Assembly (NCBI RefSeq): GCF_020509005.1
Contig: NC_063014.1
Coordinates: 3,286,001-3,350,000 of the forward strand
DNA: 64,000 nucleotides
Source of the DNA: Fulvia fulva
Taxonomy: Eukaryota; Ascomycota; Dothideomycetes; Mycosphaerellales; Mycosphaerellaceae
Direction: 5' to 3'
Part shown: positions 12,039 through 39,330 of the stretch, piece after piece
Layout: every line of letters starts with the position of its first letter
Numbering within the stretch: position 1 is the first letter of the stretch
Notes under the pieces: model-generated
The model's database searches: none
Told to the model about the DNA's origin: nothing
What the model saw: only the letters and a program-made list of their open reading frames with translations
Program-made: the position numbers and the translations under genes

Positions 12039-13116
12039 TAAGGAAGGAATCGTATTTAGTAAGCTAGCTACGAGGTAAGGTAATAAGTCTTAACCGCGCT
12101 TTCCTACTTATCTAGTACTACCGTATAGCCTCGTTTCGAGAGGTTAGCCCGGAGTAAAAGCTTCCCTCTATACCCTCCCTCCCTATTTACTCCTTAAGCT
12201 AATATCCACCTCTATAGGCCTAAGCCCTTTAGTGCTCTCTATTAACCGACATACGTATCCGTCCTCTCGGGCTATATAGATAGTGTTAGCCGTCGCTACT
12301 AGTATATACTACGCCCTAGGTTTTGACGCCCTTCGCGTTACCGTAGCCTATCTCTAGAAAGCGGCCGTCTATACCTCGTAGGTTTACTCGGGGTATATAC
12401 TACGCCGGGTAGCGTACTCCTTACGTTTCTACCTACTAACTAATATAAAGTTCCTTATTACCCTACCCTCGATCCTCCCCGATTATAGAACTAATCTACT
12501 TGTATTATACGTCTTTTCCCTATCCTAATAGCCGTCTTTTCCTTACTTAGGCTATCGTCTTTTCCTCGTCGTAATCTACTATATTAGACTAGGTACGTTA
12601 TATAGCGAGATAGGTAGTACCTTAGGCAAAACCCTCGTTCCTATACCGGGTACTTAATAGGCCCTTATAGGCTTCGTCGCGTATCTACCTACCTACCGTA
12701 TTGCCCGCTAGTAAACACTAGATTGTTTCGTAGTCCGCTCGACGCCGTTATATAGTCCGCTTAGTTATTATTCTATAGTCCGCTCGTCTAATGTTCGTCG
12801 CTTAGCCCGCTCGGTTTACGGGCTCCGGAGGTGAAAATTCTATACTTATACTAGAGGTGTCATATCTAGCGTATAGGCTACGGTTCCGCGCCCTTCTTCT
12901 ACGTAGAAAGAAGAGGGACTCACTCCCGGCACGAGTATACGCTCGTCGGATAGTTTTTATACCCGTTTTACTAGTAGTCCTCTATTCGCCGCGGCTTTGC
13001 CTACGTTACGCGCCCGTCGCGCCTACGACGCTCTAGCGTAAGAATACTTAGCTCTCTCGTAGTAAGACGAGAGGTTCGTAGCCGATACTACGTATAGGTG
13101 ATTCTCGTCGTCGACC
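12039..13116 (-). repeat. R module, copy 1 (RIP-mutated)
   Basis: A 1,078-bp sequence matching 38253-39330 end to end at equal length, the differences being mostly C/T and G/A. Its left end is fused to LINE-C here and to LINE-D in the second copy. Its right end (GTCGTCGACC in + reading) is directly followed by the target duplication in both. No protein motif is visible. Three CGTCTTTTCC units start at 12510, 12533 and 12556, a 23-bp period. Its position at the 5' end of LINE composites resembles the WEIRD part of the MINE elements of Magnaporthe; I could not compare the sequences. Confidence 0.75.
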
Positions 13117-13130
13117 TATTTTTATATATA

Positions 13131-15610
13131 GGAGAGGTCGATATATTTAGAGTTAGTACTATTATTAAGGAAAGTACATATATATTGCCTATTAGCTATC
13201 CCTAGTATTATAAGGTATAAGCCGATAATAGGGTTATGTTCTATTTCTACTATCCTAAGAATATATAATAAGGGCTTAAGCCCTTCTAGCGGCTCTACTA
13301 GTAGTACTTCCTTATATCGTATCTTCTCCTCTTCGTGTCTACTACTTATTACGCTTAAATAGCGGACTAGGCATTTTCCGCCGGTAGTATAACGGTGGTA
13401 CCGCTAGCGTTAGTACTAGATCGTACTAGTATCTCGTATTTAAAGAGTTCGTAAGTACGCTACTATAGATAGTAACCGGGCTTACGACATTTCTTATAGA
13501 GGTTCTTACGTATATAACGAGTATTCTTAGCTTTATCTATAGTCTCGCCGAGATTGCTCTTAAAAGGTTTAGGACGGGTAGACTAGGCCTTACGGGTTAG
13601 CTTATTAGAGTCTAAGCCCAAGCCTAGGCCTACTAGCTTATCGTCCTTATCCTTACCGTCCTTATTCTTATTATCCTTCTTATCGTTCTTTAGCTTCTCG
13701 GAGCGCGGGTATAGGGCGTCGAGGATCTTAAAGTCTTTGTCTACTTAATAGAGGTTATTAATTATCTTAGTTATCTTTAAGGATCGGAAGTTAAGATACT
13801 TATTAAGGTAGCGGACAGTTAGCTTACGTTATAGATTATCTATTATATCTTTACCCTTAAGGCCTAGGATATTAGTATCCTAGCGCTACTTAGGGAAGAA
13901 GGTCTAGAAGCTGTCCTTATTATCTATCTTAAGATTATTTAGGCGGTTACGAGCCCTACCGACTAGGTTACGGTCTCTATATCGCTTAGCGAGTTCCTTA
14001 ATTAGGACGTTAAGGCCCTTATACGTCTTCTTACTACTATTTAGGCTTCCTAAGATAGTAGGGATCTTAGGTCTAACTAACTCCTAGGCGTTACCTAGCG
14101 AGGCTAGTAAGTCGTATACGAACTTAAGTACTACCTTCTTATTACGGAAGACTATATAGTCGATAATAGTCTCTAACTCGGAGAAGAACTTCTCGAGGGA
14201 GGGTCTAGATAGCTTACTATTAATAGTACCGACAAACTTCTTAGGCTTGTCTATACTACGCTACGTCTTAAAGGGCTAGCTAAGGTCCGGATCGTACTTA
14301 ACTAGAGACTCGAAGTCGTAGACTAGCTTCTTCTTAGAAGAGCGGCGATAAGTACGAGTATCGCTATCCGACTCCGAGGCGTCCTCTAACTTATTAGATA
14401 ATAGATCGGAGTCGTTAATATTATCTAGCTTACGTATAGACTTCTTAGCTTTCTTTCTAGTAGTACGGCAAGCTACCTTATCCTCGTACTTATTACCGCG
14501 GTCCTTATTACTAGCTCTACTATTATTATTCTTGTCCTTAGATAGGGTTCGGCCGTTTTATAGGGCACGGCGATATAATATAGCGCGAGATAGTAAGGAT
14601 CGTACTTAAGAGCGGCCTCGGCGGTCGTTAAGTTACTTCTTAAGGTTATCTACCTAAGTTGACTACGACTTATTAAGCTAATCAATATCGCTCTAATAGG
14701 TCTAGGCTTCTATCTTATATATATTAAGGTCAAATTTAAGGGCCTTGATCTTCGAGTTGTTATTAGACAACTACTAAAGTGCCTCCTTTACTTACTTCTT
14801 TAGGGTATCGTTCTTTATAGTAAGCGAGCTAATCCCGGCGGTTATTACTATACTTAAGGATACTCTAGGTTAGGCCTTTAGGTTATCGAGTTCCTACTAG
14901 ACCTAAGTAAGCTATTACTTAGCCTGATCTATTTCTCCTCGTACCGTACCTAGGTCCTTCTAGAAAGCGTCGCGGTACTTAATAGTATCCTCCCTCTATA
15001 TCTTCTATATATCGCGGTCCTTAACTAGTATGTCGTACTCGTTACGTATCTACTAATCGTGACTCTTCTATCTCCTAAGCTCTTACCCTACTTTACCTAA
15101 TTGCTCGTAGAGTATAGTCGCTATTTATATTACATTCCTATACTCTTACTCGGTACGTCGTAGGATAAAGTAGATAGCCGCGGCCCTCTCGGGCTCCTAT
15201 ACGAGCTTAACGAGTCGATCGGTATCGAGTTATAGAAGGTCGTTAACGGGGATTTAGAGGGTCTTCGCAACTTATTATTATATCTTACCTTCCTCTCCTT
15301 CGCCTTCTTTAGTAGCGCCGTCGTCGTCGTAGTTAACTACCGCCGTAGCTATACTATCGATATTCTAGATCTCTTTATCGGAAAGAAGGTCGTATAGGCT
15401 AAACTTAGGCGGTAGGTTAGTAACTAGTCGCTATAAGCTCTCGAGTTTATACTATAAGGCGTCGTTAGTAGTTTACTACTACTACTATATCTATTCTTAA
15501 GTCTATATATTATATATAGACTCGTGCTATACTACTAGTTATATAGCTAGTAGCGAGCCTCGCTATCCTTAAGGGCGTACGATATTAGGTACTACTTAGC
15601 CTAGGGTAGT
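13131..15610 (-). pseudogene. Gypsy-1 gag with coiled-coil and CCHC knuckle (dead)
   Basis: Read on the minus strand this is a long gag of several hundred codons. Its N-terminal part is rich in Leu/Lys/Asp/Glu and probably coiled coil. A central capsid-like segment at about 13880-14250 includes a stretch reading LIKELAKRYRDRN. A Lys/Asp-rich linker follows at about 13650-13720, and then a CCHC-like knuckle reading CRKPGYY with RIP-altered Cys codons at about 13485-13510. Below this it leads into the protease region that continues at 7793 across composite 1. It is interrupted by many stops. Gypsy-3 gag shares the same coiled-coil plus basic-linker layout. Confidence 0.7.
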
Positions 15611-15747
15611 AGTCTCTTATACCGAGTCGTACATTTTTTCTAACGTACGCCGTAATGTCTTATTACGGTTATTAATAATCTATACTCTTATAGATCCCGT
15701 CGTAGCTCTTCTACGGATAGAGAGACCTAGCTAAGTATAGCGGTTTA
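15611..15747. other. Leader or flank of Gypsy-1, no gene
   Basis: This stretch lies between the Gypsy-1 gag remnant and the target duplication of LINE-A copy 2 (TAGTCGTATTAATA at 15748-15761). I see no coding potential. It may be the 5' leader of Gypsy-1. Confidence 0.35.
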
Positions 15748-15761
15748 TAGTCGTATTAATA
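15748..15761. repeat. Target-site duplication of LINE-A copy 2 (partner 20755-20768)
   Basis: TAGTCGTATTAATA is present exactly at 15748-15761 and at 20755-20768. It brackets LINE-A copy 2 and fixes both ends of that element. Confidence 0.85.
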
Positions 15762-15836
15762 GATAGGTAGATTTGTTATTCCCCTATTCTAGGACCCTAC
15801 TCGGCCTATATAGGTATATATCTATTGTTATATATA

Positions 15837-15865
15837 AAGGGAAACCGGAATAGGTAGAAACCCTT
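15837..15865 (-). promoter_or_regulatory. LINE-A copy 2 3' stem-loop
   Basis: AAGGG at 15837-15841 and CCCTT at 15861-15865 keep the 5-bp stem seen in copy 1, although the loop has picked up RIP changes. Confidence 0.55.
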
Positions 15866-15934
15866 CCTGCCCCCGACTTCTCCTTATCTAGATTAGCTTT
15901 CCCTCTAAACGTATATAGTCTCTATTACTACCCC

Positions 15935-18900
15935 GTTAGGCCCCGCTCCTAGCCGGTCTCGTCGCGCTACGCCGTATCCTCTCTTCCTATACTACTCCTA
16001 CTAGGCGCTACTGTTCTAGCTAGCCCTTCTCTAGTATCTAGTTCGTAATACGCCGTAGGTCCTTAAAGTTATTAAGAAGTGCCCTAATCGTCCGGTTCCT
16101 CGCCTTTACTATCTACTCCCCCCTTCCTAGCGACTACCTCGGATAGACGAGGAGTACGTACCGTATATTCTAGGAGTAATAGCCGTAGGGGTAGCTAGTA
16201 TTCGTATATTCTAGAACCTTCCTCTATGATAGGTACTACTAGAGACCGATATGTTTGCTTCGTAGTTAGGTTACTATACTACTCTATACCCTCGTAAGGC
16301 GGTAGTAGATAAGCTTCGGGGGGTACTTAACCGCGGATTTCGTAGCTAACTATTCCTAAGGTTATCCCGCTAGCTAAGGGCGTCTACTATGCCCTATAAC
16401 CTAGTTATTCCACCTCTCTTTCTATAGTTGCTCTATAAACAATTTCTTACCTTCCTATTATATTACTAGCTATTCGTCCCTTACCCGGTAGTTCGGCTCG
16501 TTTCCGGGTCGAATACCCCTATACGCTAGTACTAATTTGCGGGCCCTTACGACTACACTAGCGATGACCTTCTATACTAGGTACTATACCGACGTGCCTA
16601 CGTAGGAGGTCCGTAGTCCCTAGATATATAGGTCGATCGGCGGTATAGCGGTCTCGTGCTTAAGTATCCTTATTAGTATCGACTTATATACCCCGGTGAC
16701 CTTCCTTAGGCATTAGTTTTGGATCTTTGCTAGCGGCGCGACGAGTCCCTTCGATAGGTAGGCCCTCTCGCCTAAGGACTACACTTGGCTACTATAGGTA
16801 AGGACTAGCCGTATAATAGCCGTATAAAGAAGTCGTAAATACCGAAAGTCCGCCCCCTATATAGACGTAGTAAGCCTCTAGTATAATGCTATATTCTGTT
16901 TAGCTTTCCGTAATATTACCTATACGTACTTCCTCTACCGTAGCGCCGGGTCTACCTATAGTCCGAGGATCCTAAGCTGATTTACCGGGTTAGTTATATA
17001 CCCCTATATCTAGATAGAAGCTTATATATTATAGAACCGTAGCCGGCGCGTAAAGTATATTAGATTGTACTTTTCTAGGGCAAACCGAGCCCTATACCTT
17101 CTAGCCTAGTCCTCGTAGATCTTGTGCTTCTCTTCTAATAGCCTATAGTTCTCCTTAGTCGAGGAAGACTACGCTAGGATGTTCGTGTCATCTATAAAGC
17201 CGCTCGTAGCGGTATTCTAGGATTCTAGGGCTAGGAGTAGCGTCGCTATAAAGAAGAGGAACAGGATAGGTACTAGCGTTAAACCTTACGGGATTCTAGT
17301 ATAGACTGCTTAAAATAGGCTTTTATACTAACCGACTAGGATCGACGTACTACGGTTTTAGAGGTAGGACCGTACGAAGTTAATAAGCTACTTAGGCAGT
17401 CCTTTCGACCTTAGGATATAGAGTAGCCGCGGGTATAATACGTAGTCGAAGGCTCCCGATATGTCTAGACTAAGTAAGGATACTACCTTGTCTCTATTCC
17501 TATACTAGATAGCCTTTACCTAGGAGGTCATAAGTTCTATCGCGGATAGCGTCGATCGCTATAGGCGCGTACCTATCTAGGTGTCCGGGAGTAGGGAGTA
17601 CTCCTCTACCGCCTCGGAGAGTCTCGTTATAACTAGCTTCTTAAGCGCCTTCCTAGGAGTATTAAGGAGCGTAATTAGGCGGTACGACTTTACCTACGTA
17701 TAGTCTTAATTTTACGGCTTACGTAGGACTCCTATCGTCGATTGTTTAGATACTATCGGATAGTATCCGGTCTATAGGCAGGCGTTAAAGATCACTACGA
17801 CTACTAGGGCTAGTTAATCTCTACACTTCTTTAGTAGTTCGTTTAGGATCCTATCCGGCCCCGGGGCTTTCTTCGCCGGTAACTTCCTAAGTATAGCGGT
17901 AGTATCTCCCTCGGACATATTCTATTAGACCGCTATACTAGGGTCTAGGGGAGTAGAGCTGCATATATTACTTAGATTAGCCTCGACTAGGGGCGGGAAG
18001 AACTTACTAGCTAGTAGACGCGCCTTAGCCTCGGGGTCGCTAACCGGGCTACTAGGCGATTATAGCGCTAGGATAGAGAAGGAGGGGCCCTATATAGGGT
18101 CCTATCGGGCCTATTTCACTAGCTTCTACATCCTCTCTAGCTTGCCGGCGATTTCTTCTACTATAGCCCTCTAGCCGACTGCTTTCTCCCTCCGTATTAT
18201 AGCTTTCTTCTATTAGTATGCCTCCCTATATACGTTCTAGGCCTCCTCGCTATAGCTACTCGTCTATACCCGGTAGGCTCTCCTTACTTCTCTTACTACC
18301 GTAGTATACTTCGGCGTCTAGTATAGTTTAGACTATATCGTTACTTAGGTAAGCGGAACGTAAAGTAAGGTCACTTTTCTTATTTCGTCTATTAACCCTT
18401 AGACTACCTCGTCTATCTCGTCTTTACTATTGTATTACTACTACGCGATCTAGACTAGCCTCTCGGAGTTATCGAGGTACGCCTAGATATTAGCTAAGTA
18501 GGCCTTTCCCTAGTATAGCTTAGGGGTTCTCGCTAGTATACGTTATATCTATATCGTAATAGAGGTGCTGACTAGTATATAGCCTAACGACGCCTCGAGT
18601 CTATATTCGATCCTATAGTAGGTTACTATATAGTAGTAGCTATCTAAGATCTAGGAGAGGTCGATCGTGCCTTAGAGTCCCCCTCTCTTCTAGGTACCTT
18701 GGTCCTTCGGAGTATTAAGGGCAATTACGTTACTCGCTATTAAGTCGAGTACTTCGTCGGCTATAGGGTACGGCTATATAAGGCTTTCCTAGGAAGGGTA
18801 GTATATATTAAAGTCTCCTACTACGAGATAGTACCCTTATCTCTTAAGCGTACTATTTAGGTATCTATAGACCCTAAGGTCGCGGCTAGACCTCGAGGCT

Positions 18901-19240
18901 AGCAGTCATATATTCAAGTTATATATCTAAGTACTACCTACGTAGAGAGAGGTAATATCTCCCCCGCCTTCTTCGTCTACGTAGTATACTACCTCCTAGT
19001 CGGATTCTAGTATATCCTTACTAATATAGAGGTACGTACGGGGTCTACCGTCGCTACGTAGGTATATCGTATACCCTAGTAAGTTATAGGTCGTTAGTCT
19101 CTTATAGTACGGGTTAATCTATAGCTCCTAGATTACTAGGACGTAGTAGACGTACGGGTCCGCCTCGTATAGAAAATAGTTCTAGACTATATCCTTACTA
19201 TAGTTGACGTTATACTAGATAATACTAAGCGTATCGAGGC
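15935..19240 (-). pseudogene. LINE-A ORF2, copy 2 (dead)
   Basis: Mirror of the ORF2 remnant in copy 1. On the minus strand it reads an APE-type endonuclease (near 19240-18500), an RT core with an intact-looking FIDDTN codon string at about 17175-17200, and a C-terminal Cys/His cluster near 16150-16200. No RNase H motif was seen. Stops occur in every domain. It is useful as a second RIP-dead allele for deducing the ancestral LINE-A. Confidence 0.83.
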
Positions 19241-19259
19241 TAGTTATCGTTATCGACAA

Positions 19260-20560
19260 TCATTTCCTCTATAATGTCCTATATCCTATTACCTAGCGCG
19301 TCCTAGTCTACGCGTATCGGTTATATACTAAAGGGGAGCCGGGCCTAGTTAGATTCCCTCGCCGTAACTAGTAGAGTACGTAGCCTCCCGTACGCCCTAG
19401 GTTATATATCCTTTATATTATTCTCGGCCCTAGGGCGCTTATACCTGACCGCCGCTAGCTAGTTCCGGTATAGACTAGCCTTACGGTCGCCTTAGAATCT
19501 TAGGGCGACGGTTCTATTTATAATTGCCTTGTTTTTCGCTAGTTTCCGCTACGGGCATTCCGCGCTATACGATAGGTAGTACCCCGGACAGTTCGCGTAC
19601 CGCCTCGTAGCCGATATATAGTCCCTAGATATATAGTCTCCTATATAGTTCGAGTAGGCCTACTTGTTTATATACGTATAGGTTTAGTGTCTATACTGTT
19701 AGTATTTAAAGTATTAGAGGATACGGAAGGATAAGGAGTGCTTTTCTACTATCTTAAGGCTATATTACTAGATTAGGCCTTATTCTATTACTAGATCCGC
19801 CGCTTTCGCGTCTTATAGCTATATAATTAGCGCCGAGGCCTTCTTACTTTCTATCCATTTCCTATAGAGCTAAGTCGCCTTCTAGATTAGAGAGTTAAGA
19901 GTGACCGGGTTATCCTCTTAGAGAGTACGTAGGTGACCTTAGTTAATAAGGTCGAACTCTTTAGGTATATCGTAGACTAGGATTGTAAATTGCTTCGTTA
20001 AGAGCTTTACTAATACCGTAACCTTAGATACCTACTATAGCTATGCCTCTAGGTGCCTCCTAGTAGTAGTAGAGCTAGTATAGATCTATAGAGTGCCGTT
20101 AGACTATTAGTTCACTACGACTACTACTAGTTAATTAATTCGTTAGGCGAGCTCCTTGTTCGATAGCTTCGTAACTTCGGCCTAGTCTTCCTTTACTATA
20201 ATATACATCGTAACTATATCGTACGTTAGGCGGGGGCCTAGTATCGATACCGCGACCGATACCTAGCTATAGGGGTATAAATTCCGGGTAGCCTTATTAA
20301 TCGGCTAAGACGTCGTCCTTATTTCTTATTGCCCTCGGTAGTACGATAGTACTAGCGCCCTACGTAGCTAAGTGATTATTATCTATAGAGACCGGTATAG
20401 GAGCTAATTGTTAGTCTCTATACTTTTTACGTCCTCTATAAGTTGCTACTAGTTGTCTTAGGGGAGCTTCGCCTATAGAGCCGTAGGCGCCGGTAGTACC
20501 GTAGCCTAGGCTACTATTACCTAGGAGTTGCCTAATATAGCTAGGCACCTCCGCGGCGTT
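19260..20560 (-). pseudogene. LINE-A ORF1, copy 2 (dead)
   Basis: Minus-strand ORF1 remnant. Its N-terminal part can be read with few stops from about 20540 downward and includes a short stretch rich in Gly and Ser. Its C-terminal part carries knuckle-like Cys/His clusters at about 19530-19725. It directly precedes ORF2. The 5' UTR occupies about 20560-20754 and shows no clear motif. Confidence 0.6.
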
Positions 20561-20768
20561 TAGGGCTATAGAGCTAAAGAAATAGGGTGAAGAGAACTTT
20601 AAGCTATCTAACTTAAATAAGGTAGAACTCCCTTAATTCTAGGGGTAGTAGCCTACTTTATAGATCGTTAGAATAGCCTTAATATAGGCTTTCGAATATA
20701 TCGTATTTAGCGATAGCGCCGACTTAGGTAGAGTTTATAGCGATGACGACGAATTAGTCGTATTAATA

Positions 20769-21190
20769 TAAAGTAGCTAGGTACGTAGGAAAGAAGAGCG
20801 CGAGGTACGCTAAGGCTATATATAAGCCGAAGTATTACGCTAGTATACGCGGTTACGTAACCTACGTACTAGCTATCTATTTACTAGGCCTAGGGCCGTG
20901 ATATAAGGAGGCTATCTAATACTAGCCGGAATAGCTACTTAGAAGCGTCCTATCGTATTACCGTACCGGGGAACATTTACCTTAACCTATATATACGGGC
21001 TTAGACCCCTACTTACGTAAGCGGGCTTAGCGCTCGTATAAGAACCTCGAGTACCCCGCGCCTCTCTTAGATAGAATATCTATTCGACTTATACCTTATC
21101 CGACTACGTACTTATATCTACTTATAATACTTCGAATAGATTATTACTAATATATAGAGAGATACGAGAAGCTACGATCAGGAGATTATA
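20769..21190 (+). other. Possible 5' LTR/leader of Gypsy-3
   Basis: No protein motif is recognisable here. A TATATATA string at about 20987-20994 is followed by a C-rich stretch and then by the open gag-like region, as expected for an LTR promoter and leader on the plus strand. I could not find a matching second LTR in the window, so this is a guess from position. Confidence 0.3.
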
Positions 21191-22311
21191 GAGAAACGTA
21201 ATAGTATACGAAGAGTACTAAGTATTAGATATCGTACTCGATCGAGTCGTACCTTAAGAAGGTTATACGGCTAATACCGTATAATAGCTAGAGTAAATAA
21301 TAACGGCGGCGCGCTAGGCGCGTAGATAACTTATAGTCGCGTTAAGCGCGCGAGTATTAGTAGATCCTCTTTCTTTACCCTTCTACCCGACTCTAGCAAT
21401 AATAGCGGAACCGAGGGCGACGCGACGTAGACCTACGGACGCGAAGAGGAGGTAGTAAGGAAACTCGTCGATAAGAGTAACGTATACTATAAGTAGTATA
21501 AGAAGGTCTTTAACCGACTCGCGGAGATATAAGAGGAGGACGAGACCGAGGCCGAGCTTAAACTTAACCTAGCTAACTTAGTAGGCGATAGCTACGTCGA
21601 GGACGAGACTAACGACGAGGGTAGGACCGGTATAATAGGACGCCGAGTTACGATATTAGCGGACAAGTTTAAGAAGTAAGTTAACGACTACCCCTAGTAG
21701 ATATATAAGATCTTAGTCGATATCGAGTTAGACTATCGACGCGTATATAAGACGATCTCTATACTAGATATAGCTAACCGTATTAATATACGTAAGGTTA
21801 AGGATACGAGAGATTAGATAGATAGACTCGAAGACGAGATTAGTACTATTTAGGCTACTAACTAGTTACTTTAGGACGAAGTAGCTCGACTTAAGAGCAC
21901 CCCGATTATTATCGATCTAGACGAGCTAGTAAAAGCTTAGGAAGAAGTAAAGAAGGCTAAGGAAGGCAAAGCCTTATATAGGATATAGTATAAGGACGCG
22001 GAGAATAAGTTAATAGCTACTAAATAGCGTATCGCCGGACTCGAGTAAGAGGTACGTAGTCGACTATAAGAAAAGTAAGATCTACTACCGTAGCGTACCG
22101 AAACCGATAAATCGCTAGAACGTTATAAGAGTAAGCCTAGTCGGAAGCCGGCGAAGGGAAACGGCGATCTAGACTCCTTAGACGAGGACGATAACGATAA
22201 GAATAAGGACGGTAAGCGTAAGAGTAGTAGTAAGCCGAGGCGTAAGAACGCTAGCGACTCGAATATACCTATCTCTACGTATACTACGTACGACCTCGAT
22301 ATAATAACGGG
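21190..22311 (+). pseudogene. Gypsy-3 gag, N-terminal part with coiled coil (dead)
   Basis: Plus-strand reading gives a charged, heptad-rich segment at about 21650-22080 that should form a coiled coil, then a Ser/Lys/Asp-rich linker at about 22130-22260. It stops at the LTR of Gypsy-2 (22312). The capsid-like continuation is found on the other side of Gypsy-2 at 46128. The match across the gap rests on strand, order and domain layout. I could not confirm a target duplication (ACGGG against ATATG). Stops are frequent, in RIP style. Confidence 0.55.
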
Positions 22312-22658
22312 TATTAAGTTATTATACTATAGACGACTAACCACCCTAGTAAGTAAGGGCGCGCCTAGTAACCTTAAGATGGCTTATAGGTAGGTATATA
22401 TACTTGTCGGTCCGCGGGCCGTAAAGTTTATATAGTGATCTTGAAAAAAAGATAATAAATCTGAAATTTTTAGATTCCCGTATCTTCGCCTTATAGAGAG
22501 ATTCCTCGTAAATCCTTAGCTTCCTACTAAGGTCGCCTCCTAACTATATATATCTTAGTAGTACCCCTATATACCCCTACTACGTAATTAACCGTTAAAG
22601 GTTAACGGGATTCGACGCGCAAATTTTCAGGGTCTAAAGGGGCCTTAGCTCGTTAGTA
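22312..22658 (-). repeat. Gypsy-2 3' LTR
   Basis: 347 bp, same length as the copy at 45781-46127 and similar throughout. RIP-adjusted ends are TGTTAA...GTTAACA (here TATTAA...GTTAGTA), giving the short terminal inverted repeat usual for LTRs. Because Gypsy-2 reads on the minus strand, this left copy is the 3' LTR. Confidence 0.78.
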
Positions 22659-22670
22659 TATCCTCCCCTA
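22659..22670 (-). promoter_or_regulatory. Gypsy-2 polypurine tract
   Basis: Directly beside the LTR, the plus strand reads TATCCTCCCCTA, which is TAGGGGAGGATA on the element's strand. A purine run touching the 3' LTR is the expected plus-strand primer of LTR retrotransposons and independently supports minus orientation. Confidence 0.6.
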
Positions 22671-23030
22671 TTACGAAACTGTCCCTAGTTTCACCTCCGC
22701 TACGCTAATATAAACTAAGAAACTATACCTACAAGTTATACGTAAAGAAGGCGGATCCGGCGTCTAGTCAAGTAGTTAGTCTAGAGATATTAAGGAGATC
22801 GCAAGTTCATGCTATAAGGGGCTAAGGAGGCTAAGTCAAAGTCTAGGCTTCGTAGTAAGCCTACTCTCAAATGAAGAATATAGCCTAGAGATTAGTTAAG
22901 TACGCTAGAAACTAGGTACTAAAACTAGAAGCTAGTTAAACTAAGGTTAGAAACCAAAACTACTAAGTAAACTCCTTACGCCTAAAAAAAGAAAAAATCG
23001 AGTCCTATCCCTCCTTTGACCTAAATCCTA
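22671..23030. other. Gypsy-2 3' untranslated stretch
   Basis: Between the polypurine tract and the end of the integrase remnant there is no coding potential in any frame. Several ACTAGAAACTAG-like short motifs recur around 22900-22960. Confidence 0.45.
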
Positions 23031-27256: not shown

Positions 27257-28606
27257 ATAGTAACTAACGAGAGCTATAGCCTTACGAACATTCTATACTA
27301 AGCGTTAAACCGGGGAACAAACTAAGAAAAAACCTAGGACATAAGCTAAGGCCTACTATATAGAAAATAGAGGCTAACGACAAATAATATAGCGTAGACG
27401 ACCCTATATACGGAGGCGGAAAACTTACTAGGGGATAACGAACACCTAGCCCGGGTATATAAGAACACTATAGTATAGCTACTAGGAGCGCTAAAAGCGC
27501 TATTATACCAAATCCCGAAGACAATCTAATAAGTAATACAGAAGGCAGCCTAGAAACTAACTATATAGGTAATAGTAGTAGGAGGCAAGAATTAACCCCC
27601 TCCGAAGGCAAGTAAGGCGGTACGCCTATATATTACTAATTCGGCGGAGAAACAAGAAATCGTAGCCCTAATAAGCAAGGAGATTGTCGACAGAATCGGC
27701 CAAAAGGAGGTAGTTAGGGCGAGGGTAGAGGCAATAGGCGTAGTAAGACTCTTTACCGTATAAGAGTCTAATAGACGAAAGCTAGAGATCTATAAGGAGT
27801 AGACTACTAAAGTCGCGAAGTCGGTACGAGTCTCCTACTAATAGTATACCGTTATCGCCTACGGGGTCCCTAGGATATTTAAGGTCGAAGACCTTCCCTA
27901 CCTCTAAGTATAGAACTAGAACACCTCCCTAGGAGTACGACTAACGAAGGCGGCATAGCTATATAAGACAGTAGACTGAGAAAAGACGTATTTATCGCTT
28001 ATTATTTAGGTAGAGATAGCGGAACAAGCTAACTAGATACTAGATAATAGGCTATTCTAGAACTACGAGAGAATAGACACGGAGATCTATTAGAGTAGCT
28101 ATAGGGTACTATAATGCTTCTAATGCTAATAGTACGGTTATATAGCCCTAAAATGCGGGGAGAAGACCCTAAGGTATCCTTACTACGTAGGCCTATACTA
28201 GGGAAGGGAATGCCTAAAAAAGGAGAGTAGGTACGTATACTACGGTAGAAGGCACCTAGCGTATTCAAGCTAATACCTAGATAGAATAGTAGTATAAGAA
28301 CGAGCGAGATAAGTAAGGATCTCTATACTAGCTAGGTACCCCTAACGATAGTAGGAGGGACCTACCGTATATAAGGGCTTCGAGCCGAGCAAAAGGAGGA
28401 GGGTAGAAGAGACGAACAAGGGAACCTAACCGTAAACGTATCTACCTCCCGGTAGGCCTCGACACCTTAACCGGGCTACTAATGAACTAGGCCAAATGCA
28501 AATCTTTAGGGCGCCCTAGCGGCCCTAGGGCTAGCCGGACAGCGAGATATAGGCTTAGGAGACATAGTAGGTCAGTACGGAAATAGACCTTACGGATAAC
28601 GAATAA
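27257..28606 (+). pseudogene. LINE-D ORF1, RIP-dead
   Basis: Allele of the intact ORF1 at 40625-41974. The start codon is ATA instead of ATG (27257) and Gln/Trp codons are widely converted to stops. The three zinc knuckles are still traceable at about 28115-28275, with several Cys codons changed to Tyr. Comparison with the intact copy gives a direct record of RIP preference in this genome. Confidence 0.88.
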
Positions 28607-31600
28607 TACTATACGACGACATTACTATCGTATAGTATAACGTAAACAAAAGTAGGGACAAGGTCTAGCGCTACTTTCTATAAGAGCTAGACCCGCTACG
28701 GCACTACGTTATTACGGTATAGGAACTATAGATCAACCCCTACGTAGGACTCCTAGCCACTTATAATAACCGGAGATACTATACCGTAATCGCGGGCTAA
28801 CGAGGCGTTATCCCGAGGACATATATATACGTAAGTAAGACTATAGACCTTAAGTCGTAGAAGGTTATACTACCGTAGTAGGGCAACCTAGGAGACATAA
28901 CATCAATCTAGATCGACACGACACAAGGCCCTATCTAGATCTATAACGTTTATAACCCGCTACCGCGGGGTCGGACGAGTAGGGAACTAGGAACCCTTAC
29001 CTACCTAGAGCGGACCCTAAGCTAAGACACGAAGTAAGTACTCCTCGGCGACTTCAACCTCTACTACCTATAGTAGGGACTCGAATTCACTCCCCCGTAC
29101 GCGTTTCTAGGGGGGAAGCTACTAGATATAACCGTACGCTACGGAATGGCCTTAGTAATACTAAAGGGAATAGAGACGTAGAAGGCCCGTACTAGTATAA
29201 GCACAATCGACCTATACTTTCTATTACGAGAACTTGAAGAGAGACTAGTCTAATGCCGACCGAACTACGCGCTAGAAGCCTCCTTAGACCATTCCCTATC
29301 TAAACGACGCTAGGGGTGAAGGCGATAGAGGAGCTAGTAAGCGAACCACGCCGTAACTAGAAGAAGGCATACTAGGACGACATAAGAGGCTTCCTAATAG
29401 CGAACCTACTATAGTATAGAGAACTCGAGACGACAGCTTAGCTAGATCAAGTAGCGGAATAGATTACCTCGGTTATATAGCAAGTAGCGGAACAATACAC
29501 GCCGTTACTCCGGCCCTTAACGTAGTAGAAGGCCTTCTAGACCCCTAAATACTCTACGAAGGTAAGGGAGGCTAAAAGGGCAAGGCGACAGTAGACGAAG
29601 GAGCACACCTAAGAGACGTAGGAGTAATACTACTACGCGACATAAGAGAAGAAGGCACAGATAAGACGCGATAAGCTATAGGACTAGAGAGCGACGATCG
29701 GGCTCGTTATAGAAAACCCGGAACAGATATAGAGACTTACTAAATAGGCACGACTACCTAAAGAGCAACAAGCTCCTCACTTCTCCCTAATCGTAGACCG
29801 CGAAGGGATTGCCTAGGCTACGCCCTGGGGCCAGGCAAAAGCGTTAGCCGACTATTTCTTTTCGACGTAAGTAGAGGCAGACCTTACGAACATCGACCCG
29901 AGTATATATCCGGAACCCCTAGACATAGATTAGGCGGTTAGCTCTAATATAGTAACAGGAGTTAAAAGTAAGCTAAAAGGACGAAAAGCCCTAGGCCTAG
30001 ATAGGATACTAAACGTACTACTAAAAGAGTATAGAGAAGAGATCGCGCCGAGCCTTATAAACCTATTTACCGCGTACCTACGGCTAGGGTATTACCCGAA
30101 GCCGTATAGAGAGTCTATGACAGTAGTGCTACGTAAGCTATAGAAGGAAGACTATACTTAGCCCAAGTCGTATAGACTAATAGCACTTCTAAATACGATA
30201 GGGAAGGTCCTAGAAAAGATAGTAGCCTAGAGACTTACGTAGCTTACCGAGGACAACTACGTACTCCTAGCAATATAGATAGGGGGAGGAAGCTAGCGAT
30301 CGATACTAATAGTAATAGAGCTAATTACGGAGCAAATTCAGACCCTCTAGCACTACGGCAGGAACCGAGCGGCGTCCTTGCTATCCCTCGACATCGTAGG
30401 GGCCTTCGACAACGTCTCACACCAAAGGCTAATACATATTCTACAGCAGAAAGGCATCCCCTAGTAGGTAACGTCGTTCGTCTACTCCTTTCTCTAGGAA
30501 CGGACGACATACCTAGTCCTAGGAAGGTATACGTCCGACCCGGTAAAGGCAGAGACTAGAATACCTTAGGGATCTACTCTCTCCCCTATCCTGTTTCTGA
30601 TATTTATGTCGGATCTAATCCCCCTACTCACCTCTCCGTAAACCTTAGTATCGGGGTTCGTAGACGATATAAACATCCTAGCCTAGTTAGACTCGACAGA
30701 AGAGAACTGTCGCCTCCTTAAAGATAGGCACAAGAAATACGAGGAGTGGGCAAAGAAGTATAGTGCCCGGTTCGCCCCTAAAAAGTACCAACTTATACAC
30801 TTTAGTAAAGCGAGAACATACTATAATATAAAGGCGGCGGTAAGAATCTAAGGCTACGAGACCAAGCTATTAGCGGAGCTACGAGTACTAGGGATCTAGC
30901 TCGACCCGAAGCTAAGCTAGAATGTATAGATTAAGAAAGCCTAGAGTCGAGCGTAAGTTAATAAAGCCTCGATAAAGAGGCTTACGGTATCTATATAGGG
31001 AGCAACATTCGATAAGGCAAGAGTAATGTATAAGGCGATCGTTAGACTAGCTATGTTATACAGGGCATAGATTTAGGGAATAGGAGGCGTAGGCAAGCCG
31101 ATCCCGAAACGGATAGAGCAACCCCTAAATAGGACATAGGTAGGCAACCTACGTAGGGTACTAGGCGTATATAAGACAACGTCAACAAGCACGGTAGAAA
31201 TAGAGACAGGAAGACTACTAATCGGCTAGTATATCCGGGGAATAAGAATTCAATACGCGGTAAAGACGACAGGTTACCTAGCACAAACCACGATCTAGGA
31301 GGCAAAGAATAAGATAGAAAGCCGCTACCGGAGAGGGGTAGGACATAGGACAAGCTAAAAAGAGGATGACCTTACTACCTTTACGGCCGTATAGACAAGC
31401 ACCGAATGGCTAGCACGAAAGGAGGAGAAGCGTAGGACTCGCTAGGCCGGCGGGAGCAAGGCTAAGACCTAAAGCCTAGCGGAATAGATAGCGAGCTACC
31501 TATAGGAGCAGGACTAGAAAAGGAAGCCCCCTAAGACAATAGGCCCGATAGCGCTCCAAGCCTTCTAGAGACATAATTACTAGCTATATAGGGACCTAAC

Positions 31601-31955
31601 AAGGGCCGAAGCAAGTATAGCGATCCAAATCAGGTCCGAATATATTAGATTAAGGGCCTATCTGTTTAGGAGACGCGTACTAGACATCTTTAGCCTAGCC
31701 TACTAGTATAGCTACCTATCGCAAAACCTAGAACATATGCTACTACGATGCCCGTAGTAGGCGAGAGGTAGGGGAAATTAGAGGCACTAAGCGGGAAGGA
31801 GAGACTATAAGTCAATTATTAGGGACAAAGGCAACATTCGCCGAATCTCTCGGTAGATACTATAGTAGGGATACCTCTAGCAGTTTAGCCTCGCGAGCGA
31901 GACGGAGGAGTAGATAGACAAGAGGCGGAAGCGAGGGGGGTTGTAGATAGGGTAG
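28603..31955 (+). pseudogene. LINE-D ORF2, RIP-dead with a 1-bp deletion
   Basis: Allele of the intact ORF2 at 41971-45324. The start is ATA at 28603 and there are dozens of TAG codons in place of CAG and TGG. Near 29285-29300 the sequence lacks one base relative to copy 4 (CCATTCCC against CCATATCCC), a frameshift just after the endonuclease SDH motif. The RT motif region at about 30655-30675 reads FVDDIN, with Thr changed to Ile. No function is possible. Confidence 0.88.
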
Positions 31956-32168
31956 TTATTAGGGCAGGCCTATAATACTAGCGTACCCCTAACAAGGGAA
32001 ATTTAAGACGATAACGAGGAGGAAAAGATAGGCGGGAAGGAGGAGGGGGTTTTTACTAACACGGTTTCCCCTCTATATATACAAAAACGAGATAGTATAG
32101 CTATATAGGCCAAAGGGCACTACAACAGCTTAATGAAATATCTATCTATCTATCTATATTCTACGACC

Positions 32169-35100
32169 TATTGTCGAAGGCTAGGCTCTACCTTAGCGTC
32201 ACTATAGTCCTTAGTAGGACCTTTTACGCCGATCCCGTTAAGAAATAGTTTTGCTCGGTAAGAAATATAGTCTATTAACACCTTAGTTACTACCCGTACG
32301 AACTAAGTAACTGAGTTCGTCGTACCCTATAGTAACGTTATATACTATATAAGCCTAAGAGGCGTTATAAAGGCCGTTAAATCTCGGCTGCTTTCGTTAA
32401 GTATAATCTAGTCGTACCCCGAAAACAAGTCTACTAAAGAGGCTACTCTATACCTAGTAAAGTCCTCCGAGAACCCGTCTATATCTAGGGGAATGTTTAT
32501 ATCCCTTATCGTTACCTCGTTTAAGAGTATAGCGGAGTTAATCAACCTATATAGTATAGCTTTACTGTTTAGCTCGACCTTCTTCGCTAATAAGAACTAA
32601 GTGTTTATATAAGCACCTTGACTATACTTAAGAATTCTGTTCTTAATTCTAGCGCGGATCATCTATTCTATAATCGCTCGTAAGCTTAGGTATAACCGAA
32701 TGTTCCGCGCCTACTACGGTTTATACGTAATCGTTATGATCTTCTAAGGAGGCATAACATTATGTCTAATCTGCTATATATAGCTAAAATCCTACGCTAG
32801 GACACCTTCTTAGTTAAAGAGCATTTTATTAAACATTTGTCTTTCCTTAGCCGAGAGAGCGATACTAACCTTAATACTAGCGAGCCTTTTAGGTATAATC
32901 CTCGAGCCGCGCTCGATACTAGAGAACTTTTTAATAAGATACCTCCTATCGAACGGGCCTTGCCCTACTAGTATTAGAGATTCCTAGTAAAGGGCCTTTC
33001 GCTTCTAATCTATATTACTATTAACTTTCGACTAAGGCTCTTCGTAAACGCTCGTATTAATAGGTCTTTCCTTGTCAGCTTTTCGCTTATATATAGTAAA
33101 TATATACGGCATCCTAATACCGGGTCTATATAACCCTACGTCTCATTTCTAAGCCTACCTATTAATCTGGCCCTATTTTAGGATCTTAGTACACTAGTTG
33201 CCCTATACGGAGTATATATTTAAAATGACCTACTCTCCTAGAGCGTTAGTAGTTACCTTAGCGCTTAAGTATTAGCGGTTCCCGAGTAGTTCTAGCAATT
33301 TCTTCGAATACGGGCTAAGGTCGAGGACATTTTCTCTTTGTTATAATACGGGGCCGCGGTAGTTCTTAAAGTAGTCGAAGACAGTCGTGTCTATAGGCTT
33401 GGGTTTTAGCTTCGTTATACCTTCTTATTGATGTCGATACGCCGTATTATTAGAACACTCCGCCCCTAATATATTTGCTAAGATCTCCCCGACTAGACTC
33501 GAAAAGCGGACTTGTTTCAAAACCGGACTTCTAATACTTATAGCGGGTTGACTGCCGTAAATCAACCCGCGTTCGTATTTTTCGAGGACTATAGAAGTTC
33601 TTAAAGAGTTTTGTACTTGTTAGTACCTATAATAGCCGTGAACATTACACTTTTACCTTTCCTAGTAGCGATTATTCCCTCCTATAATCTATCGTCGTAG
33701 TTATAGCCTATTAGTCGTACCTTTCTATACTAAGGGCGGCTAAGGATCGTAGGCGAATCTAGATTAGCGGAGACAAATATATCGATCTAGTAGTATATAC
33801 GAAATACCTAAGTATTAAGCTTTGAAATTACCCCCTTAAACTTCGCTCTTCTACCCGCTCCTCGAAAGGACAAGTAGGCGCTAGGTATGATAGGTAAGCC
33901 AAACTTATGTACTATCCTCGGGCTAATAATGTTGACTTTAGATCCCTCGTTAAGTAGGGCTCGAGTCTGACCTTTACTAGTCCTAAGCTCGGTAACTACC
34001 TAAGGGCTAGGTACTATTACAAAATCGTCTAGTATACTAGAGAGATCGATCCTTTTAATGTTCTCGTATAACTCGGCGGTAGAGATAGCATCCTTACTAC
34101 ATAACATCGTTAAGAATATACCTATAAAGCGAGCTTAATAATTATCCCGAAATACTTCTTTATTAGCCTCTTCTTCCTCGTCTTTATAGGTAGCGACATG
34201 ACTCGTACGGACTTTAGTCCCTTCTTAGCTAGCTAACTTACGGACGGTAGTAAGCTTAGACTATAGATTCGGGGTATTTACTACTCTCCTAAATAAGGCA
34301 GTCTTAAACTAGCGACTATACCGAAACTAGTCCCGGGCATTAACGTTTAGAAACGTAGTCTAAAGAATTTGATCAATCTAATAGATCACTCCCTCCTCCT
34401 TAGTGACGGGCCTATCTCCTATACCGTACTATTAGACGTAGTTGTTAATCCTTATTGTCTTCGTATTCTATAGCCGTTTACGCTATATAAATAGGGCATT
34501 AATAGGCCCTACCGGCTATTCCGAGGGCGTAGGCCTTGACTTAGCTCGAGGCTTAGGTACCCTCCTTCTAAGAGTCTCCCCTAACGCTACCGTTAACTAG
34601 CTTCTACTAGCCCTAGAACCGGCGTCTCTAATTATCTCTACCTCCTACTAACCGAGGTCTTCCTACCGGATCTCCTCTTCGAGTTCTTATCGTATAGCTT
34701 TAGCGGCCTCGGCTCGTACTCTTAATGCCTATATACTAGACCTAGTTCGAGGATTCGGGTTCTTTATAATTCCTACTAGAGCTTTACCTCGAGATTTATT
34801 ACTCTAGATTAGGTAGGCCTTAACCTTAACCTCGTCGTAGTTTATAATCCTATACTCTTATAGAGCCGGTTCTTCTTCTTCCTTAAACTAGATCTAGTAA
34901 CTACTAGCGGCCGTCGGTTACTACCTAGATCTAAAATCTTAAGGGCTGTGTTCTATAAGGTGTTAGTTATTAGGTAGAGGTTTAGAGTAGTTAGGAAGCT
35001 TTACGCTTAAGACACTAGTATAATCTCGACCTATCTATTGTTTCTGAAGCGTAGGGATCTTTATGTCCTTATTAAATAGAATCGGGCTATAGTGTTCCTT

Positions 35101-35384
35101 AAGCTACGGAAGTATATAAAGGAGCTTAGGTTTACTATAGTCCCGTCGGAAGTTGAACTTAGGGGGATTTAGATCGGTCTTCTTTCCTAGGTACTACTAG
35201 TTGTTCGTCGCTAAAAAGACATACCCTTATAAGATAAGGAATAGTATCGCGGGACACCTATTAGCCTAATGTTCCGTACTACTATAGTTATAATAGCACC
35301 TATTAAGCGCTTTAGACTACTCGCGGTTCTATAACTACGGGCGCTATATTAAGTAAACCTATCGTTTAGGTACTCGATCGGGGT
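32169..35384 (-). pseudogene. Gypsy-2 gag CCHC knuckle, protease and RT (dead)
   Basis: On the minus strand from the right: a CCHC knuckle (C.X2.C.X4.H.X4.C with RIP changes) at about 35265-35305, a charged linker, a protease-like region around 33600-34100, and RT blocks from about 33500 down. The RT includes SLVDLFSGYD at about 32405-32435 and a catalytic-site block reading FLNGIGVKGP at about 32220-32250, where a D-D pair is expected. This type of RT, with GVKGP after the catalytic Asp pair, occurs in one group of fungal Gypsy elements. Stops are frequent. Confidence 0.75.
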
Positions 35385-35398
35385 TCTCTAGTTATATA
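35385..35398. repeat. Target-site duplication of composite element 2 (partner 39331-39344)
   Basis: TCTCTAGTTATATA is exact at 35385-35398 and 39331-39344 (two more bases, GA, also match). It brackets the LINE-D part together with the R module, so both arrived as one unit. Confidence 0.9.
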
Positions 35399-35596
35399 GA
35401 TAGATAGATAGATATTTCATTAAGCTGTTGTAGTGCCCTTTGGCCTATGCAGCTATGCTATCTTGTTTTTGTATATATAGAGGGGAAACCGTGTTAGTGA
35501 AAACCCCTCCTCCTTCCCGCCTGTCTTTTCCTCCTCGTTGTCGTCTTAAATTTCCCTTGTTAGGGGTACGCTAGTGTCATGGGCCTGCCCTGATGA

Positions 35597-38252
35597 CTAC
35601 CCTATCTACAACCCCCCTCGCTTCCGCCTCTTGTCTATCTACTCCTCCGTCTCGCTCGCGAGGCTAAACTGCTAGAGGTATCCCTGCTGTAGTATCCACC
35701 GAGAGATTCGGCGAATGTTGCCTTTGTCCCTAATAATTGACTTGTAGTCTCTCCTTCCCGCTTGGTGCCTCCAATTTCCCCTGCCTCTCGCCCACTGCGG
35801 GCATCGTAGTAGCATATGTTCTGGGTTTTGCGATAGGTAGCCATACTGGTAGGCTGGGCTATAGATGTCTAGTGCGCGTCTTCTGAACAGGTAGGCCCTT
35901 AATCCAATGTGTTCGGACCTGATTTGGATCGCTATGCTTGCTTCGGCCCTTGTCAGGTCCCTATATAGCTGGTAATTGTGTCTCTAGAAGGCTCGGAGCG
36001 CTATCGGGCCTGTTGTCTTAGGGGGCTTCCTTTTCTAGTCCTGCTCCTATAGGCAGCTCGCTATCTGTTCCGCTAGGTTTTGGGTCTTAGCCTTGCTCCC
36101 GCCGGCCTGGCGAGTCCTACGCTCCTCCTCCTTTCGTGCTAGCCATTCGGTGCTTATCTATACGGCCGTAAAGGTCGTAAGGTCATCCTCTTTTTGGCTT
36201 GTCCTATATCCTGCCCCTCTCCGGTAGCGGCTTTCTATCTTATTCTTTGCCTCCTAGATCGTGGTTTGTGCTAGGTAACCTGTCGTCTTTGCCGCGTATT
36301 GAATTCTCATTCCCCGGATGTACTAGCCGATTAGTGGTATTCCTGTCTCCATTTCTACCGTGCTTGTTGACGTTGTCTTGTATACGCCTAGTACCCTACG
36401 TAGGTTGCCTGCCTGTGTCCTATTTAGGGGTTGCTCTATCCGTTTCGGGATCGGCTTGCCTGCGCCTCCTGTTCCCCAAATCTGTGCCCCGTACAACATA
36501 GCTGGTCTGACGATCGCCTTATACATTACTCTTGCCTTGTCGAATGTTGCTCCCTATGTAGATGCCGTAAGCCTCTTTATCGAGGCTTCATTGACTTGCG
36601 CTCGACTCTAGGCTTTCTTAATCTATACATTCCAGCTTAGCTTCGGGTCGAGCCAGATCCCTAGTACTCGTAGCTCCGCTGATGGCTTGGTCTCGTAGCC
36701 TTGGATTCTTACCGCCGCCTTCATATTATAGTGTGTTCTCGCTTTACTAAAGTGTATAAGTTGGTACTTTTCAGGGGCGAACCGGGCACTATGCTTCTTT
36801 GCCCACTCCTCGCATTTCTTGTGCCTATCTTCAAGGAGGCGACAGTTCTCTTCTGTCGAGTCTGACTAGGCTAGGATGTTTGTATCGTCTACGAACCCCG
36901 ATACTGAGGTTTGCGGAGAGGTGAGTAGGGGGATTAGATCCGACATAAATATCAGAAACAGGATAGGGGAGAGAGTAGATCCCTAAGGTATTCCAGTCTC
37001 TGCCTTCACCGGGTCGGACGTGTACCTTCCTAGGACTAGGTATGTCGTCCGTTCCTAGAGAAAGGAGAAGACGAACGACGTTACCTACTAGGGGATGCCT
37101 TTCTGCTGTAGAATATGTATTAGCCTTTGGTGTGAGACGTTGTCGAAGGCCCCTACGATGTCGAGGGATAGCAAGGACGCCGCTCGGTTCCTGCCGTAGT
37201 GCTAGAGGGTCTGGATTTGCTCCGTAATTAGCTCTATTGCTATTAGTGTCGATCGCTAGCTTCTTCCCCCCATCTATATTACTAGGAGTACGTAGTTGTC
37301 CTCGGTAAGCTGCGTAAGTCTCTAGGCTACTATCTTTTCTAGGACCTTCCCTATCGTATTTAGAAGTGCTATTGGTCTGTACGACTTAGGCTGAGTATAG
37401 TCTTCCTTCTGTGGCTTGCGTAGCACTACTGTCATAGACTCTCTATACGGCTTCGGGTGATACCCTAGCCGTAGGCACGCGGTAAATAGGTTTGTAAGGC
37501 TCGGCGCGATCTCTTCTCTATACTCTTTTAGCAGTACGTTTGGTATCCTGTCTGGGCCTAGGGCTTTTCGTCCCTTTAGCTTACTTATGACTCCTGTTAC
37601 TGTGTTAGAGCTAACCGCCCAATCCATGTCTAGGGGTTCCGGGTATGTGCTCGGGTCGATGTCCGTAAGGTCTGCCTCTACTTACGTCGAAAAGAAATGG
37701 TCGGCTAACGCTTTTGCCTTGCCCCGGGGCGTAGCCTAGGCAATCCCTTCGCGGTCTACGATTGGGGGGAAGTGAGGGGCTTGTTGCTCTTTAGGTAGTC
37801 GTGCCCATTTAGTAAGTCTCTACATCTGTTCCGGGTTTTCTATAACGAGCCCGATCGTCGCTCTCTAGTCCTATAGCTTATCGCGTCTTATCTGTGCCTT
37901 CTTCTCTTGTGTCGCGTGGCAGTATTGCTCCCACGTCTCTTGGGTATGCTCCTTCGTCCACTGTCGCCTTGCCCTTCTAGCCTCCCTTACCTTCGTAGAG
38001 CATTCAGGGGTCTAGAAGGCCTTCTGCTACGTTAAGGGCCGGAGTAACGGCGTGTATTGTTCCGCTGCTTGCTATATGACCGAGGTAATCTGTTCCGCTG
38101 CTTGATCTAGCTGAGCTGTCGTCTCGAGTTCTCTATGCTGTGGTAGGTTCGCTATTAGGAAGCCTCTTATGTCGTCCTAGCGTGCCTTCTTCTAGTTACG
38201 GCGTGGTTCGTTTGCTGGCTCCTCTATCGCCTTCACCCCTAGCGTCGTTTGG
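35597..38252 (-). pseudogene. LINE-D ORF2 3' part in composite 2 (partly RIPed)
   Basis: Covers the end of the endonuclease, the RT and the C-terminal Cys/His region of ORF2. Many but not all CAG/TGG codons have become TAG, intermediate between copy 1 (two stops) and copy 2 (saturated). The RT catalytic region at about 36880-36900 is still readable as FVDDTN. Short open stretches remain, such as 37322-37627, but no long frame. The N-terminal endonuclease is replaced by R, so no ORF2 could be made. Confidence 0.85.
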
Positions 38253-39330
38253 CAAGGAAGGAATCGTATTTAGCAAGCTAGCTACGAGATAAGGTGACAA
38301 GTCTTAACCGCGCTTTCCTACTCATCTAGCACCACCGTGTAGCCTCGTTTCGAGAGGTTAGCCCGGAGCAAAAGCTTCCCTCTACGCCCTCCCTCCCTAT
38401 TTGCACCTTAAGCCAATATCCACCTCTATAGGCCTAAGCCCTTTAGTGCTCTCTATTGACCGACATGCGCATCCGTCCTCTCGGGCTGTATAGACAGTGT
38501 CAGCCGTCGCTACTAGTGTACACTACGCCCTAGGTTTTGACGCCCTTCGCGTTACCGTAGCCTATCTCTAGAAAGCGGCCGTCTATGCCTCGTAGGTTTG
38601 CTCGGGGCACACACCACGCCGGGCAGCGTACTCCTTGCGTTTCTACCTACTAACCAATATGAAGTTCCTTATCGCCCTGCCCTCGATCCTCCCCGATCAC
38701 AGAACTAATCTACTTACATTATACGTCTTTTCCCCGTCCTAATAGCCGTCTTTTCCTTGCTCAGGCTATCGTCTTTTCCTCGTCGCAATCTACTATGTCA
38801 GACTAGGTGCGTTGTGTAGCGGGACAGGCAGTGCCTTAGGCAAAACCCTCGTTCCTATACCGGGTGTTTAATAGGCCCTTATAGGCTTCGTCGCGTGTCC
38901 ACCTACCCACCGCATTGCCCGCTAGCAAACACCAGATTGTTTCGTAGTCCGCTCGACGCCGTTGTATAGTCCGCTTAGTTGTTGTTCTGTAGTCCGCTCG
39001 TCTAATGTTCGTCGCTTAGCCCGCTCGGTTTACGGTCTCCGGAGGTGAAAATTCTGCACTTATACTAGAGGTGTCCTGTCGAGCGTATAGGCCACGGTTC
39101 CGCGCCCTTCTTACACGTAGAAAGAAGAGGGACTCGCTCCCGACACGAGTACACGCTCGTCGGATGGTTTTTATACCCGTTTTGCTAGTAGTCCTCTATT
39201 CGCCGCGGCTTCGCCTACGTTACGCGCCCGTCGCGCCCACGACGCTCCAGCGTGAGAATACTTGGCTCTCTCGTAGCTAGACGAGAGGTTCGTAGCCGAC
39301 ACTACGTACAGGTGATTCTCGTCGTCGACC
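38253..39330 (-). repeat. R module, copy 2 (nearly unmutated, 1,078 bp)
   Basis: Same length and ends as 12039-13116. On the minus strand it begins GGTCGACGACGAGAATCACC and ends CTTCCTTG. Near its 5' end, two hairpins are visible: CTCTCGT...ACGAGAG (39270-39289 on +) and CGTAG...CTACG (about 39290-39306). Three CGTCTTTTCC units start at 38724, 38747 and 38770 (period 23), and four TAG(T/C)CCGCT units start at 38945, 38967, 38990 and 39017. No convincing ORF was seen: the longest frame starts with GTG and is not kept in copy 1. It is probably derived from a structured or non-coding RNA. Confidence 0.8.

Follow-up and report, generated by a model that had tools for sequence, protein, structure and literature searches.

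A 1,078-bp sequence with constant ends heads LINE insertions of several families in Fulvia fulva and may be the copy of a discrete RNA

Introduction

Template switching by the reverse transcriptase (RT) of LINEs has mostly been studied through tens of rare chimeras. In the R2 system, a 2004 study is said to have found that RT leaves one RNA and continues at the 3′ end of a second one. In Magnaporthe grisea, MINEs are described as chimeric retroelements composed of WEIRD and MGL; in the part of that report that is available, no solitary WEIRD was found, and gaps in the assembly were suspected by the authors (PMC2104539). The full phrase, 'Mixed Interspersed Nuclear Elements', occurred only in PMC2104539 within the literature searched, subscription papers being outside its scope. 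For chimeras of U6 and LINE-1, the accessible portion of another paper proposes a route by RNA ligation (PMC13174262). The assembly of Cladosporium fulvum Race 5, where the LINE Tad1 makes up 16.3% of the genome, is reported to run from telomere to telomere in the available part of its description (PMC9453070). Here we analysed a stretch of 64,000 nucleotides of Fulvia fulva (the window), together with the genome around it, for a sequence termed R that stands at the head of LINE insertions. A search of the literature, with the same scope as above, returned no report of anything like R in Cladosporium.

Results

The original prediction held that R occurs twice in the window, with one length and the same two ends. 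This was borne out by alignment of the two copies, which gave 89 differences and 0 indels over 1,078 bp (Table 1). In sense (minus strand) R starts with GGTCGACGACGA and ends with ATTCCTTCCTTG, and because both window copies are on the minus strand, R stands on the 5′ side of the LINE with respect to transcription. One copy had been placed on a LINE-C/LINE-B chain and the other directly on LINE-D, and we located these joins at 12038/12039 and 38252/38253, respectively. The LINE-C fragment of the three-part insertion has both of its ends internal to longer LINE-C copies. In the full-length LINE-D of the window there is no R at the start, and the element is flanked by a target-site duplication (TSD) of its own; LINE-D positions are counted from window position 40417.

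Table 1. Positions of R, its LINE partners and the associated duplications in the window
Feature	Position	Strand	Description
R copy 1	12039..13116	-	1,078 bp, full length; strongly mutated by RIP; T allele at position 53 of R
R copy 2	38253..39330	-	full length (1,078 bp); forms 5′ part of the R-LINE-D insertion
LINE-D, 5′-truncated, (CTAT)n tail	35401..38252	-	R joined at LINE-D position 2253
TSD, R 5′ side of R-LINE-D	39331..39346	.	16 bp
TSD, past LINE-D tail of R-LINE-D	35385..35400	.	16 bp
Internal LINE-C fragment between R and LINE-B	11131..12038	-	908 bp, ORF2 reverse-transcriptase region
LINE-B, 5′-truncated, (TTTA)n tail	7806..11130	-	3′ part of three-part insertion
TSD, R 5′ side of R-LINE-C-LINE-B	13117..13130	.	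14 bp, with mismatch
TSD, past LINE-B tail	7792..7805	.	partner of 13117-13130
Full-length LINE-D without R	40376..45525	+	junction reference
ORF1 of full-length LINE-D	40625-41974	+	449 aa
ORF2 of full-length LINE-D	41971-45324	+	1,117 aa, EN+RT

The window copies belong to a large population. In the assembly of 67,169,167 bases on 14 contigs, exact patterns found 546 R 3′ ends and 332 R 5′ ends, with 0 matches to reversed-pattern controls, and the counts rose to 622 and 583 when up to 3 mismatches were allowed. On contig 1, 73 of the 82 exact-type R 5′ ends listed were paired with a listed 3′ end and 9 were without a listed partner. The lengths of these 73 copies were 1,078 bp in 64 and 1,073 bp in 4, with one copy each of 1,055, 1,072, 1,077, 1,079 and 1,080 bp. 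Among the copies picked for alignment as nearly full matches, 40 of 40 spanned 1,078 columns without a gap (38 once two duplicates were dropped). Two tandem joins were found, on C1 and C9, in which R(1-1078) runs into R(371-1078) and into R(168-1078), and 5′-truncated copies were also present, such as that of L035, which starts at 677. The case of R having many different ends, named beforehand as contrary to the prediction, was set aside by the 64 of 73 contig-1 copies of 1,078 bp, with some qualification from the copies that are 5′-truncated or joined R to R.

The sequence differences among R copies are mostly of one kind, with C to T in CA context making up 2,093 of the 2,281 changes typed; such a bias is the signature of repeat-induced point mutation (RIP). 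Allele 53T, a transversion free of RIP, was carried by 11 of 38 copies, across several LINE families and junctions, and the 53T copies form the more RIP-mutated set (p = 2.5e-5). This pattern fits a succession of source alleles, with one or few sources changing allele over time. Another allele, 926T, is common to the LINE-D chimera of the window and to L034, which belongs to another LINE family, and it is absent from L041 despite the same junction as in the window copy (2253). Alleles common to different families and junctions are consistent with R having been captured repeatedly from a single source locus or a few of them. We also found 40 or more full-length copies whose match to the least mutated R reaches 1,927-1,945 bits, and therefore the capture of R is recent.

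What R is joined to was read from 114 3′ junctions, comprising 94 of the 100 R 3′ ends listed on contig 1 and 20 from another set of 31 near-identical copies. The results revealed that 108 of these lead straight into a LINE oriented like R, 93 by DNA match to LINE references at 84% or more in the orientation of R and 15 more by LINE protein match. The best references among the 93 were LINE-D (49), the L015 family (21), the L010 family (10) and others (13); the references L030, L032 and L033, which bear ORF1 or ORF2, were matched by 9. The remaining six comprise four inside the L016 stretch of a LINE with ORF1 and ORF2, a weak 41-nt match near the LINE-D start (L065) and one unassigned junction (L057). 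Between families the partners have about 65% DNA identity, and they are diverged relatives within one LINE group, so that calling them unrelated, as had been done, was too strong. An R tied to one LINE or one junction was looked for and was not seen in the sampled junctions.

For LINE-D, 571 3′ ends were found genome-wide by exact pattern. Among the first 100 of them (all on contig 1), 33 had a same-strand R 3′ end within 5.4 kb, of which one (7447148) is joined to another LINE family and 32 were confirmed by junction sequence; R was upstream by distance for 37 of 100 once R 5′ ends were added, the exact patterns overlooking mutated copies. A few copies of R are joined near a LINE 5′ end (L056 at LINE-D 141, and L072). 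No stand-alone R was seen among the copies inspected, a minority of the genome total. A purine directly after R was found at only 7 places, while an almost identical pattern gave 546 exact 3′ ends, and as candidates for a source locus these were rejected, every one that was read continuing into R or LINE-like sequence.

From 155 junction sequences we obtained 69 LINE-D matches, or 64 LINE-D events after removal of 5 of the L010 family. These fall on 27 sites, with 16 events at 3338, 8 at 2870, 5 at 2253, 4 at 3597 and 3 at 3180, whereas 5,000 simulated runs on Y·C positions (the dot marking the join) never gave more than 4 events per site or fewer than 53 sites. Together with the gap-free alignment and the joins to other families, this upheld the expectation that the ends of R are constant while the LINE partner and its break point vary. 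Of the 27 sites, all have Y directly before the join, 25 have a purine one position earlier, 24 have C as the first base after the join, and 18 have CC there; the enrichment of Y·C has p = 3e-19 (28 sites). The joins are therefore site-specific, with hotspots and the rule RY·C(C). At site 1713, used twice, the LINE has no CC and neither has the join, and elsewhere CC is kept when the LINE has it, indicating that CC is part of the LINE.

The strongest hotspot, 3338, lies in the RT codon run LDIAGAFDNV, and the same codon (within about 3 nt; 'LDI.GAFDNV') is used in the L015 (1673), L010 (475) and L014m families and in L048. Since the LINE parts differ, descent from one chimera cannot account for this cross-family hotspot. 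In 100 listed places, site 3338 was R-joined 10 times and plainly truncated 0 times, with a pattern that overlooks about a quarter of plain truncations, and this leans towards a step that requires R. Speaking against such a step, two of three plain truncations examined start within 1 nt of an R-junction site, namely window 53447 (LINE-D 2670 against junction 2671) and L019. The site rule may mark the place where RT stops or the place where LINE RNA is cut. Nine tests of RNA structure or of pairing between R and LINE as a site signal gave a lowest p of 0.066.

The duplication had been predicted to enclose R plus LINE, with R at the 5′ end of the block, and the two pairs of the window agree with this. 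Furthermore, in copies with long flanks the first base of R adjoins a duplication that is completed past the LINE tail, with a score of at least 11 in 17 of 23 copies compared to 14 of 506 swapped-flank control pairs. The LINE tails ahead of the TSD partner are CTAT, TTTA or TA repeats. The score was missed in 6 of the 23, one of which is cut by its locus end. In L017 a chimera was inserted into a LINE-D copy, and at that point the two LINE-D pieces share an overlap of 10 bases.

Several readings of what R itself is were tried and rejected. An LTR or solo LTR, also named beforehand as a contrary case, was looked for as a 4-, 5- or 6-bp repeat flanking R alone, which occurred in 0 of 23 copies. 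A SINE was dismissed on one A-box-like match without a B box and on sampled R 3′ ends that meet a LINE, not a TSD. A described structural RNA was sought in Rfam with window 38100-39500, with no match at E <= 5, and R has no CCCTAA-type template of 7 nt as for a telomerase RNA. As to a viral origin, the R 5′ 21-mer had 0 matches in viral_contigs, and the 3′ 19-mer matched one viral contig (L140) with a good alignment over those 19 bases only, which was taken as chance. A spliced R-LINE transcript was rejected on the LINE bases before the junction, which are Y and not AG. The folding of R was not above that of shuffles (tiles, z -1.5 to +1.7), and TRF found no tandem repeats in R. R contains two 10-mers with three occurrences each, about 23 nt apart.

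Discussion

We propose, with a probability of roughly 0.58, that R derives from a discrete putative RNA, copied into DNA and captured by template jumping of LINE RT during target-primed reverse transcription (TPRT). This R RNA would exist free, measure about 1,078 nt, start with GGUCGACG, end with CCUUG and come from one or very few source loci. RT copying the LINE RNA would stop at preferred sites (purine-pyrimidine before C, often CC), jump seamlessly onto the exact 3′ end of the R RNA and then usually copy to its exact 5′ end, with LINE-C or a second R as an occasional intermediate template, and the cDNA of R and LINE would be completed as a single insertion with one target duplication. The full R 5′ ends, the seamless joins and the chains would all follow from such a jump from the LINE to the R RNA 3′ end. 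The jump itself, R as a free RNA and the source locus are what we infer from the genomic copies. Counted against jumping were the lack of a stand-alone R locus among the copies inspected, the lack of plain truncations at 3338, which would not be expected from a simple pause of RT (yet two of three plain truncations lie within 1 nt of R-junction sites), the 6 of 23 copies without a TSD score of at least 11, and the structure and pairing tests, which gave no site signal, with R folding no stabler than shuffles.

The main rival to template jumping, which we prefer, is a join at the RNA level, in which LINE RNA is cut at purine-pyrimidine before CC and the R RNA 3′ end is ligated to the new 5′ end, followed by ordinary TPRT. 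The sharp site motif and the seamless joins agree with such a ligation, as does the count at 3338 (R 10, plain 0, in 100 listed places), but it requires two ligations for the three-part and the R-R insertions, plain truncations occur within 1 nt of R-junction sites, and we know of no nuclease that cuts by the RY·CC rule. We consider the ligation route unlikely. A scheme in which a few R-LINE chimeras, with R for a 5′ region, re-retrotranspose as non-autonomous elements and most copies are their offspring would explain why one junction is common to many copies (16 at LINE-D 3338, 8 at 2870). However, junction 3338 comes with 53T in L012 but 53A in L042 and L043, junction 2253 comes with 926T in the window copy and not in L041, and 926T returns in L034 with its other LINE family. 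The homologous codon is joined in several LINE families, and most copies are mutated by RIP, making such re-mobilisation quite improbable.

The reading of R as an ordinary LTR, a DNA transposon or a SINE beside LINEs, or else as a 5′ UTR that belongs naturally to a single LINE, has in its favour that R is repeated hundreds of times and that L056 and L072 are joined near a LINE 5′ end. This is contradicted by the lack of a B box and, in all 23 copies, of a 4-6 bp repeat flanking only R, by the full-length LINE-D of the window, which begins without R and has its own TSD, and by the one R common to several families, and we regard it as very improbable. A bolder suggestion, which we hold as tentative and rather doubtful, is that R represents a non-autonomous element of a new type, whose RNA is the preferred second template or ligation partner of many LINE families, always seated at the 5′ end, with sequence-specific donor sites and no self-primed 3′ start. 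In one LINE family a third of all insertions end in R, and therefore R may also determine the completion of LINE insertions.

What looked like a curiosity of the rice-blast fungus now looks like a large and recurrent process, with several hundred R-headed insertions in several families, and the MINE-type phenomenon appears not to be confined to Magnaporthe. One genome offers about 600 chimeras with exact ends, which reuse the same nucleotide and obey a simple site rule; the fungus is haploid, and its assemblies run from telomere to telomere. With so many exact-ended chimeras in one haploid genome, RT jumping versus RNA ligation becomes testable. The question raised is the nature of the ~1.1-kb RNA in both fungi; the host of R is a Dothideomycete, unlike Magnaporthe.

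The likeness to MINE that had been predicted was confirmed in design: a 5′ part that resembles an RNA copy, a truncated LINE directly behind it in the same orientation, and one TSD around the whole, here with several LINE families. According to the available part of the MINE report, the two have in common what would be, for R by inference, a full-length copy of a non-coding RNA of ~1.1 kb at the 5′ end, a same-orientation 5′-truncated LINE behind it with a single target duplication, hot spots marked by a short sequence motif, the failure to find a solo copy, and a three-part insertion (PMC2104539). In that same part MINE has 31 copies, compared with about 600 here (~20 times as many), and its partners are one LINE (MGL) plus Mg-SINE, compared with several LINE families for R; WEIRD has 1,113 nt and R 1,078 nt, the likeness considered here being one of architecture (PMC2104539). 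The MINE motif given there, GCC·A/U, differs from RY·C(C), where CC is kept from the LINE, in the placement of the cut, within a similar CC context (PMC2104539). The two could be reconciled by a 2-nt shift only if WEIRD ends in CC. With mammalian chimeras of the U6/LINE-1 type, as presented in the accessible portion of their description, R-LINE shares a full-length RNA 5′ of an often 5′-truncated LINE, in sense and with TSDs; the partners of LINE-1 there include U1-U6, 5S, Y, tRNA, 7SL, 7SK and 28S, whereas R has no Rfam match, and the term 'hotspot' is absent from the main text of that source as far as it is available (PMC13174262). R2 template jumping is a biochemical system, whereas R-LINE provides genomic evidence and a sequence-specific donor site.

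Short repeats within R

Within R, the module of about 1,078 bp that heads several hundred LINE insertions, GAGCGGACTA and GGAAAAGACG each occur three times at a spacing of ~23 nt, and these repeats may be protein-binding sites.

Positions of the short repeats in R
Feature	R positions	Copy of R
GAGCGGACTA / GGAAAAGACG repeats	332, 355, 377 and 552, 575, 598	L016:476-1553:-

Complete and duplicated copies

The LINE-D copy at window 40376-45525 (+) is a recent insertion, with two ORFs that are both open, a target duplication of 15 bp and little RIP mutation. A nearly complete LINE carrying R was found at L072 (G000:C1:3731958), where R is followed by ~33 nt of unrecognised sequence and then by LINE-D, starting about at its 5′ end.

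Three R–LINE units with an identical junction, spaced ~4.67 kb apart (G000:C1:8826063, 8830730 and 8835401; L115–L117), are a tandem duplication of one chimera, and four LINE-D stretches on one strand of G000:C1:2449201-2451842, spaced exactly 872 bp apart, form an array in which one piece of LINE is repeated in tandem. Two R insertions that share the same flanks at either side (L027 and L028, G000:C10:2920000-2940900) represent a segmental duplication. In the window, 1-4369 and 15759-20127 form an inverted pair of 4.37 kb with 95% identity and a (CTAT)n tail at 4358.
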